DNA from: Candidatus Mediterraneibacter pullistercoris
GTDB lineage: Bacteria > Bacillota > Clostridia > Lachnospirales > Lachnospiraceae
NCBI GenBank assembly: GCA_019116885.1
Contig: DXAU01000058.1
Location: forward strand, 1 to 64,000
Direction of reading: 5' to 3'
DNA: 64,000 bases
Below are positions 8,595 through 64,000 of this stretch, in pieces; positions within the stretch are counted from its first letter, which is position 1, and every line of letters begins with the position of its first letter. A program made the position numbers and the translations under genes. The notes below the pieces were generated by a model that saw only the letters and a list, made by a program, of their open reading frames with translations, did not search any database and was not told where the DNA came from.

Positions 8595-9752
8595 CTACCA
8601 CGACTGGAAGAATACGTTATCACCGATGACTACGCCTTCCCTGCCGGAACCGTGTGCATATAGGAAATAGTAACAGTCAGAAACGGCTGAAAGTCTGGCG
8701 CCGTTGATTGCGTCCTGCGCTACCCTCATAGAGAGACTTGTGGGTCCGCTCTGGAGTACGGAATCCAGACGGCCTGTCCATACCGGCTCGAACTGGCCGC
8801 TGGCATAGACAACGCCCCTGATCGAATTCGGAAAACGAGGACTCTCCACGCGGTTCATGATGACTGTTGCAACCGCAAGCAGCGCATCATATGTCTGGTA
8901 CGCTTCGCATTGTATGATAGCAGCCAGAAGGGTAACATCATCAGCAGAAGCGTTCGTCTCGCCGCTGTTTATGACGGAGTTATCATAACCGCTGCCAGAA
9001 TTATTGGAACTGCCGGAAGAACTGCCCCCGGAGCTGCCTGACGAACCGCCTGATGCCGAAGCAGAGGCCTCCTGTGCGGCTTCCTGCTGTGCAGCGCGGC
9101 GCGCGGCTTCTTCTGCGGCGATCCTCTCCGCTTCTTCAGCTCTGGCTTGTTCAAGTCTTGCCTGAACGTCGGCAAGATTTGTGGAGGTTTCTGAAGCCTT
9201 GGCCTGGAGTTCCGTCTGCTGGGATTCCAACTGAGCCTGAAGCGCTGTCAGAGATGACTGCTGGGTCTTAAGTGTGTTCTGCTGCTCCTCAATCTCTGCA
9301 TGTATGGCTTTGAGCTCGTTAAGAGAATTGCGGTCATATTCACTCAGATTTTCAATAAAGTCAGCCTTGTTCAGAAAATCTGCCATACTCTCGGCAGAGA
9401 AAAGCATTTCAAGCAGTGATGCATTGCCGTGTTCGTACATATATTTAATACGAGTCTTCATAGCCTCGTACTGCTGCGCTTCATTTTCTACTGCTACAGC
9501 CAGTTCATCGGACGTACGGGCAATCTCACCATTGAGCATTTCCACCTGCATCTCAGTGGTAGAAATCTCATCACTTAATGCGAGGATGTCTTCGTTTATT
9601 CCCTGAAGTTCACTCTCCAGGGCTGAAGACTGGCTTTCCAGGCTGTTAATCTCCTCATTATCTGCGGATACAGGGAAAACCGAGAGTACAATTGCGAAAG
9701 AACATATCAGGGCTATGCCTGACTGTATCCATCGTTTTTTACTGATATTCAT
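8595..9752 (-). CDS. Secreted coiled-coil cell-wall hydrolase, SleB-type
   Basis: 385 residues. A signal peptide (about 1-30) precedes a long coiled coil (about 33-222, heptads rich in Glu, Gln and Ala) like the regulatory half of PcsB/EnvC-type proteins. Then comes a Ser/Gly linker (about 226-262) and a C-terminal cell-wall hydrolase_2 (SleB/CwlJ) domain (about 265-385). In that domain AIIQCEAYQTYDALLAVATV supplies the conserved Glu, followed by NRVESPRFPNSIRGVVYASGQFEPV. SleB-type domains are lytic transglycosylases acting on spore cortex or vegetative wall. The coiled-coil fusion suggests a growth or division role instead of a germination role. It is a single-gene unit with its own promoter. 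Confidence 0.88.
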   Translation of the reverse strand: MNISKKRWIQSGIALICSFAIVLSVFPVSADNEEINSLESQSSALESELQGINEDILALSDEISTTEMQVEMLNGEIARTSDELAVAVENEAQQYEAMKTRIKYMYEHGNASLLEMLFSAESMADFLNKADFIENLSEYDRNSLNELKAIHAEIEEQQNTLKTQQSSLTALQAQLESQQTELQAKASETSTNLADVQARLEQARAEEAERIAAEEAARRAAQQEAAQEASASASGGSSGSSGGSSSGSSNNSGSGYDNSVINSGETNASADDVTLLAAIIQCEAYQTYDALLAVATVIMNRVESPRFPNSIRGVVYASGQFEPVWTGRLDSVLQSGPTSLSMRVAQDAINGARLSAVSDCYYFLYAHGSGREGVVIGDNVFFQSW

Positions 9753-9809
9753 TATTTATATAGTCCTTTCTCCGTGACTGAATTACCTATGAGTGATCAT
9801 CGGGTAATC

Positions 9810-9838
9810 ATTATACTACAAATTGCGCTATTTGGCAA
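9810..9838 (-). promoter_or_regulatory. Promoter of the SleB-type hydrolase gene
   Basis: Read on the minus strand: TTGCCA (9838-9833), 17-nt spacer, TATAAT (9815-9810). A short inverted repeat ATTACC/GGTAAT (9782-9787 and 9803-9808) lies in the untranslated leader. Confidence 0.7.
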
Positions 9839-9959
9839 ACTCTGATAGAATAAAAATGTCTAAATTTTGAGCCTGGATGCTGGCTGCCGCTCCAATGCGC
9901 GGCGCGGACTGCAATATGGGCAAAAAGACAAAAAGATATCTGATCGGAGAAGATAGATT

Positions 9960-10808
9960 ATGGAATACAGGATAAAAATGATAGGAGTGGATCTGGACGG
10001 TACTCTTTTAAATGAAAAAAAGGAGATCACGCCACGGACCAAGAATGTTCTGGAAAAGGCTATTGCAGAGGGGATTGTCGTCCTGACTGCAACGGGACGC
10101 CCCTGGATGGGGATACCTGAGGAACTCAGAGACTTTCCTGGAATGAAGTACGCTTTGACGTCTAATGGGGCGCGGATTATCGATACACGGACAGGACAGG
10201 TGCTTGAGGAACATCTCCTCTCGTGCGATCTGGCTAAAAAAGCATTGGAAATATGTGGGAAATATGATACTCTACTAGAGGTGTATTTTGATGGGCAGGG
10301 ATATGCGGATGAGGAAAAGATGGCTTTGGTTGAAAAGTATCATAAAAATCCGAACATGCGCGAATACATGCGAAAGACCCGGATTCCTGTGAGAGACGTT
10401 TCGGAACTGGTGCAGAAAGAAAACAGAGGTCTGGATAAAGTGCAGGTTCTGTTTGCAGATATGCAGGAACGCTCCCGGGCATGGCAGGAACTTGAAGAAG
10501 AAAATGCTCTGGAACTCGTAAGCTCCCTTGGATATAATATTGAGATCAATGCGGCGGGAGTGGATAAGGGAAACGGGCTCATCAGCCTTGGCAGGATGCT
10601 CGGCATCCGGCCGGAGGAGATCATGGCATGCGGTGACGGGGACAATGACATCAACATGCTCCGGAACACAGGATTTGGTGTTGCCATGGCAAATGCAGAA
10701 CAAGAGGTAAAAGACGCGGCAGATTATATTACACTGTCCAATGAAGAGGACGGCGCTGCGGCGGCAATCGAAAAGTTTGCTCTGAGAGGAGGAAAAGATT
10801 TATGTTAG
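9960..10808 (+). CDS. Cof-type HAD-superfamily phosphatase
   Basis: 282 residues. Motif I GVDLDGTLL (nucleophile Asp near residue 10), motif II in LTATGRP, and motif IV ACGDGDNDINML near residue 222 identify a haloacid dehalogenase phosphatase with a type IIB cap, the Cof/YidA group. Such enzymes remove phosphate from sugar phosphates, FMN or other small metabolites; the substrate cannot be told here. The end overlaps uppP by seven bases, so the two are translated from one message. Confidence 0.9.
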   Translation: MEYRIKMIGVDLDGTLLNEKKEITPRTKNVLEKAIAEGIVVLTATGRPWMGIPEELRDFPGMKYALTSNGARIIDTRTGQVLEEHLLSCDLAKKALEICGKYDTLLEVYFDGQGYADEEKMALVEKYHKNPNMREYMRKTRIPVRDVSELVQKENRGLDKVQVLFADMQERSRAWQELEEENALELVSSLGYNIEINAAGVDKGNGLISLGRMLGIRPEEIMACGDGDNDINMLRNTGFGVAMANAEQEVKDAADYITLSNEEDGAAAAIEKFALRGGKDLC

Positions 10809-11626
10809 ATATTTTTAAAGCGATCTTGTTCGGTATTGTGGAGGGGATTACAGAATGGCTCCCCGTCAGCAGTACCGGACATATTATCATCCTGGACCAG
10901 CTGATCAAAATGGGACAGGGTGAGGACTTTATGGAGATGTTTGAAGTGGTGATCCAGCTCGGGGCGATCATGGCTGTTATAGTAATCTATTTCCACAGGC
11001 TGAATCCATTCTCTCCGACGAAGACGCAGAAGCAGAAGATGCTGACATGGCAGACATGGATCAAAGTGCTCATAGGCTGCGTTCCGGCAGGAATTGTAGG
11101 CTTCCTGTTTAACGACTGGATCGATAAGCACCTGTTCAAATGGCAGGTAGTAGCGGCAACGCTCATTCTCTATGGAATCCTCTTTATAATCGTTGAGAAT
11201 TATCAGAAGGGGAAAACTCCCAAAGTGACGAATATGTCACAGCTCACCCTGCGGATGATGCTGATCATCGGCGTTTTTCAGATGCTTTCCATGATACCCG
11301 GGACTTCACGGTCAGGAGCAACCATTGTAGGAGCCCTCATGCTGGGAGTGTCAAGGAGCCTTGCAGCAGAATACACGTTCTTTCTCGCTATTCCGACCAT
11401 GTTCGGCGCGAGTGCGCTTAAACTGTACAAATTCGGGATGAATTTTACAGGGACGCAGGTGGCTGTTCTTTTGGTAGGGATGGCCGTATCATTCGCTGTG
11501 TCGATTGTGGCCATTAAGTTCCTGCTTAAATACATACAGAATAACGATTTCAAAGTGTTTGGATATTACAGGATTATCCTTGGCGTGATCGTGATACTGT
11601 TCTTTGGAATCCAATCTATGCTGTGA
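10802..11626 (+). CDS. uppP: Undecaprenyl-diphosphatase (BacA/UppP)
   Basis: 274 residues, a polytopic membrane protein. The two family signatures are present: EGITEWLPVSSTGHIIIL near the N-terminus, carrying catalytic Glu and the SSTGH loop, and PGTSRSGATI in the second half. It recycles the C55 lipid carrier of peptidoglycan synthesis by removing one phosphate from undecaprenyl pyrophosphate, and overexpression gives bacitracin resistance in other species. GGAGG in the end of the preceding HAD gene serves as ribosome binding site. Confidence 0.96.
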   Translation: MLDIFKAILFGIVEGITEWLPVSSTGHIIILDQLIKMGQGEDFMEMFEVVIQLGAIMAVIVIYFHRLNPFSPTKTQKQKMLTWQTWIKVLIGCVPAGIVGFLFNDWIDKHLFKWQVVAATLILYGILFIIVENYQKGKTPKVTNMSQLTLRMMLIIGVFQMLSMIPGTSRSGATIVGALMLGVSRSLAAEYTFFLAIPTMFGASALKLYKFGMNFTGTQVAVLLVGMAVSFAVSIVAIKFLLKYIQNNDFKVFGYYRIILGVIVILFFGIQSML

Positions 11627-58385: not shown

Positions 58386-59084
58386 TTATTTTTGGATGTT
58401 CAACTCTTTTTCGGAGTTTGCAAAAAACTTTTTCAGCGCGTCTTTCAGGACTTCTTTATCATCCTGCAAAAGAGCTGTTAATATCTTGCAGCGGTACAGC
58501 ACTGCGCTTTCCCGTGAAGGCGAAAGACTCAGGATGTTGATGGAAAGCTCTTTGCGCAGTGCCAATGTTGTCTGCAGGAGTTTGTTCATGATACTGTTTC
58601 CGCAGAACTTTCCTATGTTCAGATCTATGTCGCTCAGAATATGTTCCATTTCTTCACCGGACATGATGTCCGTGTTCAGGTTCAGGAGCTTTTCCCTTGC
58701 GCTGAGTACATAGCTTCGGATTTCCTCATTCATCTGGTCAAAACATTCAAGGTATACCTCTGTCTCGATCAATTCCCTTGCAGTGTAGATCTCGTCGAAT
58801 TTATTTAAATTCTGATGGTACATCCACAGTACGGGTTCTTCGGGAAGATGGGAATTGTTATCTGCCACATATGTACCGCCGCCCGGACGTATATCTACCA
58901 TTCCGATCAGCGCGAGAGCGCGGATTGCCTCTCTCACACAGCTTCTTGTTACTTTGAATTTTTCAGCAAAAGCACGCTCAGTGAGTATTTTTTCCCCTGG
59001 TTTTACCTCCCCGGAGACGATCATCTGGGCGATGTTTTCGATCACTTTATCTGAGGCAGTTACTCTGCCGGTATCATTGCTCAT
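58386..59084 (-). CDS. GntR-family regulator, FadR (FCD) subfamily
   Basis: 232 residues from the ATG at 59084. The winged helix (about 10-75) reads KVIENIAQMIVSGEVKPGEK, then LTERAFAEKFKVTRSCVREAIRAL and the wing GMVDIRPGGGTYV. The all-helical FCD effector domain (about 95-228) follows, the type that binds small organic acids. It is the first gene of the catabolic cluster on its minus-strand side. The two TTGGT-type palindromes in the 60137-60366 control region are the expected binding-site class for this subfamily, so it probably represses both divergent promoters until the pathway substrate appears. Confidence 0.93.
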   Translation of the reverse strand: MSNDTGRVTASDKVIENIAQMIVSGEVKPGEKILTERAFAEKFKVTRSCVREAIRALALIGMVDIRPGGGTYVADNNSHLPEEPVLWMYHQNLNKFDEIYTARELIETEVYLECFDQMNEEIRSYVLSAREKLLNLNTDIMSGEEMEHILSDIDLNIGKFCGNSIMNKLLQTTLALRKELSINILSLSPSRESAVLYRCKILTALLQDDKEVLKDALKKFFANSEKELNIQK

Positions 59085-59236
59085 ATAGATGGATTCCCCC
59101 CTGATGTTATTGTGGCGATGCTTCAAGGACAACACATATAACTCTAAAACAGTATAATTATTTTAACGCATAATAATATCTGTAATCAATAAATATCTGA
59201 TAAAAATTTTAGCATCTATACGAACAATTACATAAA

Positions 59237-60136
59237 TCAGTTATTATAGATCAGTTTGTCCTTTATGACATTATCCAAAAGAGATCTGGACGTCTCATCC
59301 AGAGGCAGAAGCGGCTTCCGCACAGTGCCAGCCTGTATTCCCTGATGAGACAGGATGTATTTGATAGAGGCGGGAAGCCCGGTTTTGAGCAGAGTCTGCA
59401 AAATATCTGTAGAATCTGAAATGATCTTATAGATCTTATTTTTCTCCGGCGAGTTATACAGCTTGATGATCCGGTTGTACTGAGGAAACATAAAATTAAA
59501 AGTACTTCCGATGAATCCGTCGCAGTGATAGTTCAGCATAGGAACCATTTTGCTCTCAAATCCGCCCAGAACCTTGATGTCAGGATTAACAGCCTTTATA
59601 TATTTCATGCGGTAGGACTGGAGATTGGTATGTTTGATGGCGTCTATGGCTCCGGATTTCAGGAGCGCCCGGATCTCCGCATCATCCGTATTCAGATCGG
59701 CATGCGTGCTGGAAGGGATATCGTAGTAGAGCACAGGGCTTCCAGCAGCCTCTGCCAGATCGTAAAAGTAATGTGCAAGTTCTTTTGTCGTGAATGAAAA
59801 ATAGAACGGCGGCGTAGAAGCTATCTTGCGGATGCCGCAGCCAAGGGCTGCTTTTGCCATCATGATGGAGTGGTCTGTGCTGATGGAACCAACATGTGCA
59901 TACACATCCATTCCTTTTAGTTCATCTCCCGCCAGCTCAAACATGTGAATCCGTTCATCGGTTGACAGCAGAAAACATTCTCCTGCGCTTCCGCCGATAA
60001 AGAAACCATCTACTCCTTCGGAAATATTCTTTCTCCATAACTTTTTCATTTCTGTATCATTGATGCTGCCATCGCCGCTAAAAATCGTGACAGAAGCGGC
60101 GATCATCTTTTTTCTTTCCACGGTATGTCTTATCAT
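59237..60136 (-). CDS. DapA-family aldolase/lyase (N-acetylneuraminate lyase superfamily)
   Basis: 299 residues from the ATG at 60136, which has AGAAGG before it; longer in-frame starts run back through the promoter. A TIM barrel with the Schiff-base Lys168 in DAIKHTN, the catalytic Tyr138 in YYDIPSST and the carboxylate loop GGSAGE (48-53). The family forms or splits bonds next to a 2-oxo acid, often releasing pyruvate. True dihydrodipicolinate synthase is unlikely: the Tyr-Asn-Val-Pro loop is altered and the gene lies with CoA-transferases instead of lysine genes. Substrate unknown. Probably expressed with, and opposed to, the 60367 operon. Confidence 0.9.
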   Translation of the reverse strand: MIRHTVERKKMIAASVTIFSGDGSINDTEMKKLWRKNISEGVDGFFIGGSAGECFLLSTDERIHMFELAGDELKGMDVYAHVGSISTDHSIMMAKAALGCGIRKIASTPPFYFSFTTKELAHYFYDLAEAAGSPVLYYDIPSSTHADLNTDDAEIRALLKSGAIDAIKHTNLQSYRMKYIKAVNPDIKVLGGFESKMVPMLNYHCDGFIGSTFNFMFPQYNRIIKLYNSPEKNKIYKIISDSTDILQTLLKTGLPASIKYILSHQGIQAGTVRKPLLPLDETSRSLLDNVIKDKLIYNN

Positions 60137-60182
60137 ATGAGCTACCTTCTCCCTATTTGGTTTGTGCAAGTGAAAAATACAT

Positions 60183-60201
60183 AAATTGGTATATCCAATT
60201 T
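60183..60201 (-). promoter_or_regulatory. Palindromic operator upstream of the DapA-family gene
   Basis: AAATTGG-TATAT-CCAATTT. Read on the minus strand its core TTGGATATACCAA differs at one position from TTGGT-N3-ACCAA. It lies about ten bases downstream of the predicted start of the minus-strand transcript. Confidence 0.6.
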
Positions 60202-60215
60202 CATAACTTATCTTT

Positions 60216-60244
60216 AGTATATTTCTTGGTAGAATAGAATTCAA
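60216..60244 (-). promoter_or_regulatory. Promoter of the DapA-family gene
   Basis: On the minus strand TTGAAT (60244-60239), 17-nt spacer, TATACT (60221-60216). Confidence 0.65.
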
Positions 60245-60294
60245 TAGTTGAAATTGCACATAAATAGAAATAAAAAATTGTATATTTGTGCTTA

Positions 60295-60341
60295 TTGACA
60301 CAATATAGATGTCATAGCATAATTAAAATTGGTACTACCAA
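60295..60341 (+). promoter_or_regulatory. Promoter and FadR-type operator of the CoA-transferase operon
   Basis: Consensus TTGACA (60295-60300), 17-nt spacer, CATAAT (60318-60323). The palindrome TTGGT-ACT-ACCAA (60329-60341) matches the FadR-subfamily operator form exactly and covers the expected transcript start. Confidence 0.75.
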
Positions 60342-60366
60342 AAAAGAATTGCAAATGGAGGAGACT

Positions 60367-61515
60367 ATGGAGAAAAAAGTGTTGAGAGGAATCACATGGG
60401 GACATAGCAGGGGCTTCACCTCGATCATGGCAGTGTCTCAGAGGTTTATGGAGCTGCACGAAAATGTTGAAATTTCCTGGGAGAAGAGATCCCTTCAGGA
60501 GTTTGCGGATGCTCCAATCGGACAGCTTGCAAAGAAATATGATCTGCTGGTTATCGATCATCCGTGGGCAGGTTTTGCGGCAAAGCATGGTATCCTCCTC
60601 CCGCTCCAGGAATATCTGCCTGAGGATTATCTGGAAGACCAGGAAGATAACTCTGTAGGAGAGTCCTATATGAGTTATATGTTCGGCGGTGTTTTGAGCG
60701 CGCTGCCTGTCGATGCCGCAGCGCCTGTGGCAGTCTACAGACCGGATTACTTTGAAGCGGCAGGCAAAAAAGCGCCGGAGAATTTTGACGAGGTGCTGGA
60801 GCTGGCCAGGCAGAAGAGAGTGATCTACGCGGGGATACCGATTAATCTTTTGATGGACTTTTATATGTTCTGTGTAACAGCAGGCGGTGAATTGTTTTCG
60901 GAAGAAAGAGTTGTAAGAACAGAGACCGGAGAAGAAGCGCTTGAAGAGATGAGAAATCTTGCGGCCCTATGCCCGAAAGAGATCTTTCAGTGGGATCCGA
61001 TCGCCGTGCATGAAAACCTGGCTTCTGATACAGGATATATGTATTGTCCGTTTGCCTATGGCTACAGCAATTATTCAAAAGAAGGGTATGCAAAACATCT
61101 TCTGAAGGCGTCTGACGTGGTGAATTACAAAGGCCGGCGCTTTCGCACGGTGCTCGGCGGAACGGGCCTGGCTGTCTCATCTGCGTGCAGAGAGAAAGAA
61201 ACTGCAGTCCGGTTTGCAGAGTATGCGGCATCCCCGCTCATTCAGCGTACACTGTTCTTTGAGGCGGGCGGACAGCCGGGACATCGCGCGGCCTGGACAG
61301 ATGAGGAATGTAACAGACGGAGCATGGATTTCTTCAGAGATACATTGAATACGCTTGATGAGGCGTATCTTCGTCCACGGTACAGTGGTTACCTGTATTT
61401 CCAGGACAGGGCAGGGGAATATATCAGAGAATATCTGATGAACGGCGGAAGCGCTGCGGATACGCTGAAAAAACTGAACAGCCTGTACAGAAAATCTATG
61501 GAGGTAGACCGATGA
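60367..61515 (+). CDS. Family 1 solute-binding-like protein lacking a signal peptide
   Basis: 382 residues from the ATG at 60367 (GGAGG five bases before). The fold is that of family 1 extracellular solute-binding proteins: KKVLRGITWGHSRGFTSIMAV, YDLLVIDHPWAG, VYRPDYFEAAGKKAPENFDEVLELA and the late RFAEYAASPLIQ. Yet the N-terminus MEKKVLRGITWG has no signal peptide or lipobox, and no permease or ATPase gene adjoins. It is thus predicted to be cytoplasmic and may bind a pathway ligand or act as a chaperone or sensor. It is translationally coupled (four-base overlap) to the CoA-transferase gene. Confidence 0.8.
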   Translation: MEKKVLRGITWGHSRGFTSIMAVSQRFMELHENVEISWEKRSLQEFADAPIGQLAKKYDLLVIDHPWAGFAAKHGILLPLQEYLPEDYLEDQEDNSVGESYMSYMFGGVLSALPVDAAAPVAVYRPDYFEAAGKKAPENFDEVLELARQKRVIYAGIPINLLMDFYMFCVTAGGELFSEERVVRTETGEEALEEMRNLAALCPKEIFQWDPIAVHENLASDTGYMYCPFAYGYSNYSKEGYAKHLLKASDVVNYKGRRFRTVLGGTGLAVSSACREKETAVRFAEYAASPLIQRTLFFEAGGQPGHRAAWTDEECNRRSMDFFRDTLNTLDEAYLRPRYSGYLYFQDRAGEYIREYLMNGGSAADTLKKLNSLYRKSMEVDR

Positions 61516-62669
61516 AATTGCTGGAAGATATTGTTGTATTGGACTTCAGCCAGTATCTGGCGGGCCCGTCGTGTTCCCTCCGGCTTTCGGATCTCGGAGC
61601 AAGAGTGATCAAGATTGAACGCCCGGGCAGTGGAGACGGCAGCCGTAAAATGTCTCTGAAAAACCTTATGGATGGCGACAACAGTATATTGTTTCATACG
61701 ATCAACAGAAACAAAGAGAGCTTTTGCGCAAATCTGAAAGACCCGGAAGATCTGGAACTGATAAAAGAATTGATAAAAAAAGTGGATGTGCTCATTGAGA
61801 ATTTCCGGCCGGGAGTCATGAAAAAAAACCAGTTGGACTATGAGTCTGTCAGACAGATCAATCCGGGGCTCATATACGGTTCCATAACCGGGTATGGAAC
61901 AAAAGGACCGTGGGTAAAAAAACCGGGACAGGATCTTCTGGTGCAGGCAATGTCCGGCCTTACATGGCTCAATGGCAATGGCGGAAAGCCGCCGGCGCCG
62001 TTCTGCCTGTCTGTTGTGGATTCCTATGCAGGAGTTCATCTGACAGAGGGGATACTGGCAGCGTTCTTCCGCCGCATACGCACAGGAGAGGGAGCTCTGG
62101 TAGAGGTCAGCCTGATGGAGTCGGCGATCGACATGCAGTTTGAAGGGATAACAGACTTTCTGAACAGCGGCGGAAGACTTCCTGTGAGATCGGATTATAA
62201 TAATGCACACCCATATCTTGGGGCTCCGTATGGCGTCTACAGGACCGCGGACAGCTTCATTGCTCTTTCCAGGGGGAGTCTGAAAGACCTGGCCGGATAT
62301 CTGGATCTTCCGGCTCTCGCAGAGTTTAACGATCTGGAAGATGCATTTGAAAAGAGAGATCTTATCAAGCGTATGATCGGAGAACGGCTGGCCGAGAAAA
62401 AGACGGCTGATTGGATCGATGTGCTTGAAAAAGAAGGTTACTGGTGTTCAGAGGTCTATACATGGGAGACGCTGCTGAACACAGAAGGGTTTCAAAAGCT
62501 GGAATTCCTGCAGGAGCTGGACGCTGGAAAGGGCCGTAAGATATGCACTTCCAGATGCCCTGTAAAGGTAAACGGCGAAGCGTATTATTCGGCGAAAAGA
62601 GGTCCTGAACTGGGAGAAGATAATGAAAAAATCAAACACGAATTTGGATTGGGAAAGGAGGGGAGATGA
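61512..62669 (+). CDS. Family III CoA-transferase (CaiB/BaiF), first copy
   Basis: 385 residues. [30 protein letters not shown], the nucleotide-end signature NRNKESFCANLK and the active-site Asp170 in LSVVDSYAGVHLTEGILAA are as in formyl-CoA transferase and CaiB, so it should be active. Such enzymes move CoA between acids, or act as racemase-like paralogs. It overlaps both neighbours by four bases. About half-identical by eye to the next gene, so tandem duplication is likely; the acids are unknown. Confidence 0.92.
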   Translation: MKLLEDIVVLDFSQYLAGPSCSLRLSDLGARVIKIERPGSGDGSRKMSLKNLMDGDNSILFHTINRNKESFCANLKDPEDLELIKELIKKVDVLIENFRPGVMKKNQLDYESVRQINPGLIYGSITGYGTKGPWVKKPGQDLLVQAMSGLTWLNGNGGKPPAPFCLSVVDSYAGVHLTEGILAAFFRRIRTGEGALVEVSLMESAIDMQFEGITDFLNSGGRLPVRSDYNNAHPYLGAPYGVYRTADSFIALSRGSLKDLAGYLDLPALAEFNDLEDAFEKRDLIKRMIGERLAEKKTADWIDVLEKEGYWCSEVYTWETLLNTEGFQKLEFLQELDAGKGRKICTSRCPVKVNGEAYYSAKRGPELGEDNEKIKHEFGLGKEGR

Positions 62670-63808
62670 TGAGACCGCTGGAAGGTATTAAAGTCCTGGA
62701 TTTCAGTCAGTATCTGGCGGGACCGTCTGCCACACTGCGCCTTGCAGATCTTGGAGCCAGTGTGATAAAGATCGAACGTCCCGGGAAAGGGGACGGATGC
62801 CGTAATCTGCGCGTGCCTGGCTGTGAGATAGAAGGAGAAAGCCCCCTGTTCTGCGCAGTAAACCGGAACAAGGACGGCATTACGCTGGATCTGAAAGCAC
62901 CGGAAAATAAAGCTGTCATCAAAAAGCTGATTGAAGAGGCAGACGTGGCGGTATTTAGCTTCCGGCCGGGGACTGCAGAAAAACTCGGACTTTCCTATGA
63001 GCAGGTGAAAGAGATCAATCCAGGGATCATCTATGGAGAGGTGAGCGGCTATGGAAATAAAGGGCCGTGGAGCAGCAGGCCGGGACAGGATCTGCTGGCA
63101 CAATGTATCTCGGGCCTTCCATACCTCAATGGGGATAAAGAAGACGCTCCTGCGCCGCTGGGTCTGTCTCTCGCTGATATGTTTGCCGGACAGCATCTGG
63201 TCCAGGGGATACTGGCAGCGCTGATCTATCGTGAAAAGAGCAAGAAAGGGAGTTATATCCAGGTGAATCTTCTGGAGTCGATTCTGGATATCCAGTTTGA
63301 AGTGTTTACTACATTTTTAAATGACGGTCATGCGGCGCCGGTACGGAGCGCGGTCAATAATGCCAATGCCTATATATCTGCCCCGTATGGAATATATGAG
63401 ACAAAAGACGGATACATGGCGCTCGCCATGAGCTCCATTGTGAAACTGGGAGAACTTCTGGGATGCGATGATCTGCTGCGCTATGAGGATGAGAAAGAGT
63501 GGTCGACAAAACGGGATGAGATCAAACAGATCCTTAAAGAGCATCTGTTGAAAGACACGGCCGGCCACTGGCTTTCAATTCTCGAGGAAGCGGATATATG
63601 GTGTGCGAAAGTGTTGAACTGGAGAGAACTTTTTGAAACTGAAGGATTCCGCCAGATGGAAATGCTGCAGGATATATACAGGAATGGGAAGAAGGTGTTT
63701 CGCACGACAAGATGTCCGATCAGAATTGACGGAGAGAAATACTGTAGTGAAAAGCCTGTACCGTTTATGGGGCAGGATAATGAAAAATATTTAAAGGAGG
63801 TACAGTGA
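62669..63808 (+). CDS. Family III CoA-transferase (CaiB/BaiF), second copy
   Basis: 379 residues from the ATG at 62669 (an ATG at 62666 is possible but closer to GGAGG). The same family blocks are present: [33 protein letters not shown], and the active-site Asp near residue 170 in [19 protein letters not shown]. Together with the previous gene it may form a heteromer, or the two may act in sequence on different acids; paired family III transferases are known in bile-acid and mesaconate pathways. A MaoC gene follows. Confidence 0.92.
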
Positions 63809-63809
63809 G

Positions 63810-64000
63810 TTGGAACAGGTGATTTATTACGAGGATTATGAGGTCGGGGCAGTAAGAGAGACGACCGGGCGGACGATCACGGAAACGGATATCGTCCTCC
63901 ATGCAGGACAGACCGGAGATTTTTTTCCGCACCATATGGATGCGGAGTGGTGCAGGACGACGGAGTTTGGGCAGAGGATCGCGCATGGGACGCTGACGTT
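63810..64000 (+). CDS. MaoC-like (R)-specific enoyl-CoA hydratase, 5' part
   Basis: 63 codons before the window ends. The TTG at 63810 lies nine bases after AAGGAGG and is taken as start. The sequence [20 protein letters not shown], then [18 protein letters not shown] and [12 protein letters not shown], is the hot-dog fold of MaoC hydratases, including the conserved Asp-X4-His dyad (DFFPHH). It probably hydrates or dehydrates the CoA ester made by the CoA-transferases before it. The rest of the gene and operon lies outside. Confidence 0.85.

Follow-up and report, generated by a model that had tools for sequence, protein, structure and literature searches.

The 64,000-base stretch analysed here (the window), which spans positions 1–64,000 of a 90,281-base contig of Candidatus Mediterraneibacter pullistercoris, ends in a divergent gene cluster whose operon continues past the window end. 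We interpret this cluster, at about an even chance, as the coenzyme A (CoA)-ester dehydration core of a non-phosphorylating deoxy-sugar pathway of the L-rhamnose/L-fucose type. The minus strand carries the genes for a GntR-family regulator and a DapA-type lyase, the plus strand those for a solute-binding protein homologue (SBP1), two CoA-transferases (A and B) and a MaoC-family protein, in this order. An earlier note on this DNA had named the regulator, the lyase, both transferases and MaoC, and Pfam matches confirm all of them where it had placed them; it overlooked SBP1, the gene that defines the module. Together, SBP1, the CoA-transferases and MaoC would most likely fill the sugar-acid dehydratase step that is otherwise absent.

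The cluster belongs to a conserved but patchy module

An alignment scan of the named genome collection detected at least 554 stretches that encode a relative of SBP1. The 89 loci studied comprise 79 of the best 80 of these stretches plus L003, L011–L014 and L016–L020; L021, which duplicates the region of genome G026 (L011), was omitted, and L015 from genome G103, a 24% SBP match among ATP-binding cassette (ABC) genes, was rejected as a member and is outside all counts. Neighbouring families were counted by tblastn within about 10 kb. A CoA-transferase was present in 85/89 loci and a dehydratase, either MaoC-type or crotonase, in 81/89, and the survey shows the cluster to be conserved and supports the proposal of the earlier note that it is a catabolic module. 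Further neighbours were Gfo/Idh oxidoreductases (62 loci), a second solute-binding protein designated SBP2 (39), amidohydrolase-type lactonases (33), the mutarotase RhaM (17), aldehyde dehydrogenases (13), MR/MLE proteins (7) and FAH proteins (7).

Despite its conservation and wide spread, the module is distributed patchily. Among the organisms that carry it are Clostridia, Enterobacterales, Paenibacillus, Chloroflexi, Bacteroidota and rhizobia. SBP1 relatives occurred in 6 of 146 related genomes, counting the window's own genome and the weak ABC-type match of G103, and in an even draw of 391 genomes of the class SBP1 was found only in the window's own genome. The closest cluster is that of G026, which has the same six-gene order with 67–84% identity, and among the matches listed the SBP1 of Anaerostipes hominis is 68% identical to the window protein. 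On plasmids, 156 records match SBP1, and a CoA-transferase adjoins it in all five that were opened; the annotations of these five read solute-binding or ABC substrate-binding proteins, CaiB/BaiF CoA-transferases and MaoC proteins. No description of the module was found in the open-access literature, a coverage outside which most subscription papers lie, and the module is apparently undescribed.

Two groups of hosts show further particularities. SBP1 relatives are present in 90 Sinorhizobium plasmid records; the one locus that was read, L018 from Sinorhizobium meliloti pSymB, contains a bare CoA-transferase/SBP1 pair (8835–11122), and no MaoC or crotonase gene lies within 10 kb of it. Paenibacillus loci L039, L043 and L054 carry conserved genes for proteins of approximately 235, 417 and 451 aa upstream of the module, and these three families are also found in L097. 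The protein of about 451 aa may be a four-carbon sugar-acid kinase.

Deoxysugar cassettes with the module mostly lack an ordinary dehydratase gene nearby

Near-complete cassettes were detected in L022 (Anaerostipes hominis), L023 (Klebsiella spallanzanii), L024 (Biostraticola), L025 (a metagenome-assembled genome, MAG, of the Clostridia) and L026 (Enterobacterales). Each of the five holds a RhaT-like symporter, RhaM, a Gfo/Idh dehydrogenase, a lactonase, DapA, SBP1, two CoA-transferases and MaoC, as called by Pfam on the L022 proteins and by similarity in L023–L026. A FucO-type lactaldehyde reductase gene (3/89 loci) lies within 10 kb in L023, L025 and L026; the proteins of L023 and L025 reach 641 and 664 bits at a curated cut-off of 537, and the L026 protein shares 65% identity with its L023 counterpart. 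For L-fucose, the published route comprises a mutarotase, a dehydrogenase, a lactonase, the dehydratase FucC and the aldolase FucH (PMC11199699), and a similar one has been described for L-rhamnose (PMC3870299). By predicted function, the five cassettes hold the published non-phosphorylating deoxysugar steps, with the dehydratase alone missing.

This absence extends beyond the five cassettes. No enolase-type (MR/MLE) or IlvD gene lies near 12 of the 13 loci that combine a lactonase with either DapA or FAH, and the same is true for 27 of all 33 lactonase loci; UxaA was found nearby only in L051, which is outside the 13. Genes for the α-L-rhamnosidases of glycoside hydrolase (GH) families GH106 and GH78 occur together in the same 11/89 loci (Pedobacter, Hymenobacter) and an α-L-fucosidase (GH29) is encoded in 3/89 loci. 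These neighbours point to L-rhamnose in some hosts and to L-fucose in others.

SBP1 is a leaderless sugar-binding-type protein

SBP1 is the signature protein of the module and is encoded within 100 bp of the CoA-transferase gene in 68 of the 85 loci having one. In the window, the gene (60367–61515, plus strand) encodes a leaderless solute-binding-protein homologue of 382 aa (SBP_bac_1, 9.5e-16). Its AlphaFold2 model has a predicted local distance difference test score (pLDDT) of 95.0, and the top Foldseek match is the sugar-binding protein MalE3 (6dtq; E 1.2e-20, TM 0.83). A hydrophobic N-terminus was present in just one of 87 SBP1 proteins and a loose lipobox pattern in four of 87, while 9 of 10 ABC receptors from the same loci, used as control, possess a hydrophobic N-terminus. 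As a family, SBP1 thus lacks the export signal or lipobox of an ABC receptor. Judged by these N-termini, SBP1 seems to have left the cell envelope, i.e. a former outside sugar-binding protein would now reside in the cytosol. Conservation of the protein is high, with columns averaging 63% identity in an alignment of 55 sequences, and its invariant charged residues include H13, R15, D64, H65, R336 and R338, which, according to the element order of the predicted structure, may occupy cleft-lining loop positions.

SBP2, present in 39/89 loci (e.g. L076:13504–14730), is likewise a leaderless solute-binding protein and forms a similarity cluster of its own apart from SBP1. Its gene is placed after that of CoA-transferase B in many Bacteroidota loci. 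None of 34 SBP2 N-termini is hydrophobic and six match the loose lipobox pattern; the AlphaFold2 model (pLDDT 92.9) also finds 6dtq as first Foldseek match.

Two paralogous CoA-transferases probably act together

CoA-transferase A (61512–62669, plus strand; CoA_transf_3, 3.7e-94) and CoA-transferase B (62666–63808, plus strand; CoA_transf_3, 1.6e-97) are family III (CaiB/BaiF) enzymes of paralogous clades, and 4-bp overlaps join SBP1 to A and A to B. Both window proteins align with solved family members through a conserved Asp (Asp170 in A), which we take to be the catalytic residue of family III CoA-transferases, so that both copies combine the CoA_transf_3 domain with the active-site Asp. 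This Asp is kept in 139/139 CoA-transferases of normal length (cluster n=146). In a phylogenetic tree, one clade (support 0.86) holds 66 of 67 first-position and 1 of 60 second-position CoA-transferases. Where a single CoA-transferase remains after the length filter, it is of the A type in 14 of 16 loci. In four loci, A and B are fused in one frame (L045:5138–7639, L084:11321–13699, L092:11259–13715, L096:11275–13656), the hosts being three Hymenobacter and one Bifidobacteriaceae MAG; a long open reading frame (ORF) in L020 was rejected as a fusion and attributed to chance extension. The four fusions suggest that A and B work together, and the two proteins probably form a heteromer.

MaoC-type and crotonase dehydratases substitute for each other

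The MaoC-family hydratase/dehydratase gene starts at position 63810 (plus strand) and its 5' part reaches the window end at 64000. The earlier note had called for an extension past this point, and on the contig the operon indeed continues: the MaoC gene ends at 64286 (MaoC_dehydratas, 2.2e-26 for the extended contig). MaoC (R)-hydratases use an Asp-x4-His dyad, and the window protein carries this dyad within the motif GDFFPHH. The pattern GD[FY][FY]P[HQ]H is found in 47 of 68 length-filtered ORFs of the MaoC cluster; the other 21 comprise 10 ORFs of a second MaoC type and 11 apparent wrong-strand shadow ORFs. Across the 89 loci, 62 have MaoC only, 16 crotonase only and three both (MaoC in total 65, crotonase 19), and by this distribution the two dehydratase types appear to substitute for each other.

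The second MaoC type has an MHPYVAD-like motif instead of GDFxPHH (L019, L029, L031, L034, L040, L042, L046, L051, L053, L099), and several of these cassettes have one CoA-transferase.

In the crotonase type, an aldehyde dehydrogenase gene lies alongside in 13 of 19 loci (L056, L057, L060–L062, L065, L068, L069, L071, L072, L074, L083, L094). A GH2 protein family was detected in 10 loci, of which eight belong to the crotonase type. The same type accounts for four of the five loci that encode a family with an agarase-like domain. Because of these neighbours, i.e. aldehyde dehydrogenase, GH2 and agarase-like proteins, it is possible that crotonase-type loci serve another sugar acid, perhaps 3,6-anhydro-L-galactonate.

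A CoA-cycling dehydration is the favoured mechanism

The sequences show which genes are present, how they are arranged and that they are conserved. They also show the conserved motifs of the active sites, an SBP fold without a leader, the operator-like site described below and the lack of an ordinary dehydratase gene nearby. From this we infer a scheme of reactions, substrate, CoA cycling, SBP1 function and repression by GntR. A deoxy-aldonate would be bound with the help of cytosolic SBP1, and the family III CoA-transferase (A/B) would move CoA from an acyl-CoA donor onto it. MaoC would then remove the 3-hydroxyl group, resulting in a 2-hydroxy-enoyl-CoA, the enol form of a 2-oxo-3-deoxyacyl-CoA. 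Subsequently, another aldonate molecule would take over the CoA. This would release the 2-oxo-3-deoxy acid, which the DapA-family lyase would split into pyruvate plus an aldehyde, lactaldehyde in case of a 6-deoxyhexose. Until it binds an intermediate, GntR would keep both arms repressed from the divergent region. MaoC enzymes act on (R)-3-hydroxyacyl-CoA, with which the presumed geometry at C3 of L-rhamnonate and L-fuconate loosely agrees. CoA is probably recycled, since an acyl-CoA ligase is encoded near only 3/89 loci and a thiolase near 1/89. The logic of CoA activation, (de)hydration by MaoC and cleavage of a 2-oxo acid by the DapA-family lyase, as put forward in the earlier note, fits the comparative evidence.

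A bolder version of this idea is tentative. It holds that a sugar receptor once located in the periplasm now works in the cytosol as a CoA-transferase subunit that presents the substrate, and that sugar acids are dehydrated by a general CoA-cycling route in many phyla. This route would include 6-deoxy-aldonates (MaoC type) as well as the opening of 3,6-anhydro-sugar acids by β-elimination in marine polysaccharide degraders (crotonase plus aldehyde dehydrogenase type). If true, deoxy-sugar and perhaps anhydro-sugar acids would be degraded through CoA esters across several groups, i.e. gut Firmicutes, enterobacteria, Chloroflexi, Paenibacillus, rhizobia and marine and soil Bacteroidota. The annotations in the five plasmid records (solute-binding, CaiB/BaiF, MaoC) would hide such a pathway, and a transport receptor would have been recruited into metabolism as an enzyme partner. 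Each core protein can be assayed on defined aldonates, which provides a concrete test.

Several observations weigh against the deoxy-sugar interpretation

The weakest point for the window itself is the absence of upstream enzymes. Its genome (92.4% complete) contains no match to the Gfo dehydrogenase or lactonase of L022 and no RhaM, leaving non-homologous enzymes possible, and the nearest FucO-like protein is 34% identical. The substrate of the window organism may therefore differ. Dehydrogenase, lactonase and mutarotase of the fucose/rhamnose route were thus not recognised in the window genome, nor was an aldonate dehydratase: MR_MLE_C and PF04295 gave no match and a single IlvD is present. 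The DapA-family aldolase is recognised at the family level only (DHDPS 2.2e-53, motifs). In G026, no lactonase and no close Gfo were found, together with two RhaM matches. The window organism and G026 may import the acid as such; alternatively, it may be produced by different enzymes.

Other points concern the module as a whole. An enolase-type gene is nearby in 6 of the 33 lactonase loci, and 11 of 12 genomes tested encode enolase-superfamily proteins at other sites, so that these genomes may have a dehydratase unlinked to the module. DapA is near just 9/89 loci, and 8/89 loci have neither MaoC nor crotonase, five of these being cut by contig ends. The sugar-specific NCBIfam models stay below cut-off in L022 (L-rhamnose mutarotase 45.9 vs. 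99.6, RhaT 338 vs. 369, L-fuconolactonase 113 vs. 400) and therefore do not fix the exact sugar. On chemical grounds, sugar-acid CoA esters would be expected to form lactones readily. Finally, the choice of the best 80 stretches samples taxa unevenly, and the loci are not independent.

Alternative explanations

The enolase-superfamily proteins encoded elsewhere in those 11 genomes would also suit an alternative that we regard as unlikely, namely that the module acts after or beside sugar cleavage on a small hydroxy acid that is derived from the deoxysugar or attached to the glycan. CoA-transferase and MaoC would then dehydrate or hydrate that acid, and the sugar acid would be handled by an ordinary dehydratase that is not linked to the module. 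Family III CoA-transferases and MaoC often use short-chain acids, in line with this idea; however, a partner of the sugar-binding SBP type points to a ligand resembling a sugar, the ordinary dehydratase is not nearby in the 12 of 13 lactonase loci described above, and the window genome itself lacks MR_MLE_C and PF04295 matches.

A further alternative, which appears rather improbable, assigns one chemical step to SBP1 itself as an SBP-fold enzyme, with the CoA-transferases and MaoC doing the rest. Chorismate dehydratase MqnA is an enzyme with this fold, and the high conservation of SBP1, its charged invariant residues at putative cleft-lining positions and its missing leader are compatible with catalysis. 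On the other hand, the 50 Foldseek matches listed for SBP1 are transport-type binding proteins, and the CoA-transferase companion in 85/89 loci favours a partner role.

The earlier note had seen a partial resemblance to mesaconate, citramalate and itaconate routes, and an assignment of the window cluster to such a dicarboxylate or branched-acid route is very unlikely. The corresponding NCBIfam models remain far below cut-off: mesaconate CoA-transferase yields 188.1 and 180.8 vs. 700, RipB of the itaconate (Rip) route 65.4 vs. 340 and PF19315 21.6 vs. 26.5, and no Pfam match to a CitE/HpcH-type (citramalyl/malyl-CoA) lyase was obtained among the operon genes scanned. Many relatives instead lie among genes for deoxy-sugar transport and oxidation, lactonases, rhamnosidases, fucosidases and lactaldehyde reductases. 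CoA-transferase III and MaoC do occur together in dicarboxylate routes and a DcuC-like carrier gene follows on the contig (22.8 bits vs. a cut-off of 23.1), but the unit formed by this carrier and HydA is also found without the module. Carnitine or bile acid metabolism, which the earlier note had considered as the refuting case, did not appear either; the L-carnitine CoA-transferase model yields 77.8 and 98.9 bits vs. 413.

That SBP1 is an ordinary ABC transporter receptor in the operon by chance is suggested by its fold, its Pfam family and ABC permease genes within about 10 kb of 18/89 loci, the window contig included, but is extremely unlikely given the N-termini described above, the lack of a permease like the query set near 71/89 loci and the symporter or major facilitator superfamily carriers of 45/89 loci, none of which also has such a permease.

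The divergent control region contains a predicted GntR operator

Under the favoured deoxy-sugar reading, GntR would control both arms from the region between the DapA-type lyase and SBP1 genes (60137–60366). The GntR gene (58386–59135, minus strand; likely start ATG at 59084; Pfam GntR, 8e-17) has an orthologue in G026 at the same position with 70% identity, and its best NCBIfam model, PdhR, stays below cut-off. The aldolase gene (59237–60136, minus strand; likely ATG at 60136, open frame to 60301) encodes a DapA/N-acetylneuraminate-lyase family protein that is 67% identical to its G026 orthologue. It contains the motifs YDIPSST and IDAIKHTN, which presumably hold the catalytic Tyr and the Schiff-base Lys.

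A promoter-like site (TTGACA-17-CATAAT, 60295–60323, plus strand, 11/12 consensus matches) is closely followed by the palindrome TTGGTACTACCAA (60329–60341), the sole match in the window at 0.04 expected. Scanning 2.7 kb yielded 7 promoter-like sites vs. 5.3 expected; as this total is near chance, the count is uninformative and the site at 60295–60323 is a consensus match only. For the palindrome, comparative evidence is available. A site of the TGGTAnTACCA type precedes SBP1 in 8 of 13 loci bearing this GntR, and in three more with one mismatch, as compared to 2 of 76 loci without it. The background is three sites in 260,355 bp elsewhere in the loci, i.e. 0.004 per 360 bp. Genome-wide, the longer pattern was not enriched over its reversed control in the window genome (2 vs. 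2) and little enriched in the others, with counts of 3 vs. 1 in G026, 5 vs. 3 in another genome and 3 vs. 0 in a further one. These data are good, though not final, evidence that TTGGTACTACCAA is the predicted operator of this GntR. The single divergent control region postulated by the earlier note is supported, though not proven, by the promoter-like and operator-like sites.

Downstream of MaoC follow a DcuC-like carrier, a HydA-like protein, a protein of 212 aa, AraC, L-fucose isomerase, an FGGY kinase, LacI and a sugar ABC transporter. Of the first three (contig ~64279–68487; L003:8280–12488), the HydA-like protein (hydantoinase/oxoprolinase A) is 717 aa long, and the 212 aa protein has no Pfam match. 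HydA relatives were present in 20 of 146 genomes, the window's included, and a carrier of the same family lies beside HydA in 20/20 HydA loci returned; for three of the 23 matches no locus was returned, so that they are not included, and the carrier comparison rests on the in-frame carrier of G026. HydA and carrier share a contig with SBP1 only in the window genome and in G026. As the unit occurs elsewhere without the module, carrier and HydA were rejected as pathway parts and probably constitute a separate unit. L-fucose isomerase and the FGGY kinase, together with AraC, LacI and a sugar ABC permease, adjoin the cluster at contig ~68492–75341, a neighbourhood with a possible link to deoxysugars.

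Comparison with known systems

The module shares with the non-phosphorylating L-fucose/L-rhamnose pathway (FucM-A-B-C-H; LRA) the logic of a 2-oxo-3-deoxy acid, and some of its relatives have the mutarotase, dehydrogenase, lactonase, DapA-family aldolase and lactaldehyde reductase. It differs in that FucC is not encoded alongside and SBP1, CoA-transferases and MaoC or crotonase are present instead; in addition, close relatives of the first three genes are missing from the window genome. In carnitine dehydration by CaiB/CaiD, a CoA-transferase and an acyl-CoA dehydratase act with cycling of CoA. The module resembles this system in its family III CoA-transferase, its acyl-CoA dehydratase and the rarity of nearby ligase genes, but it does not reach the carnitine model, is surrounded by sugar genes, includes an SBP partner and uses MaoC more commonly than crotonase.

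SmtAB is a heteromeric family III CoA-transferase. Like SmtAB and benzylsuccinate CoA-transferase (PDB 9fn0), the module has two paralogous subunits, here encoded in tandem; in contrast to these enzymes, both subunits keep the active-site Asp, an SBP gene is added and the other neighbours differ. Finally, SBP1 has the fold of SBP_bac_1 sugar-binding proteins (6dtq MalE3, 5iai), from which it is distinguished by the lack of a leader, the operon linkage to CoA-transferase and its high conservation.

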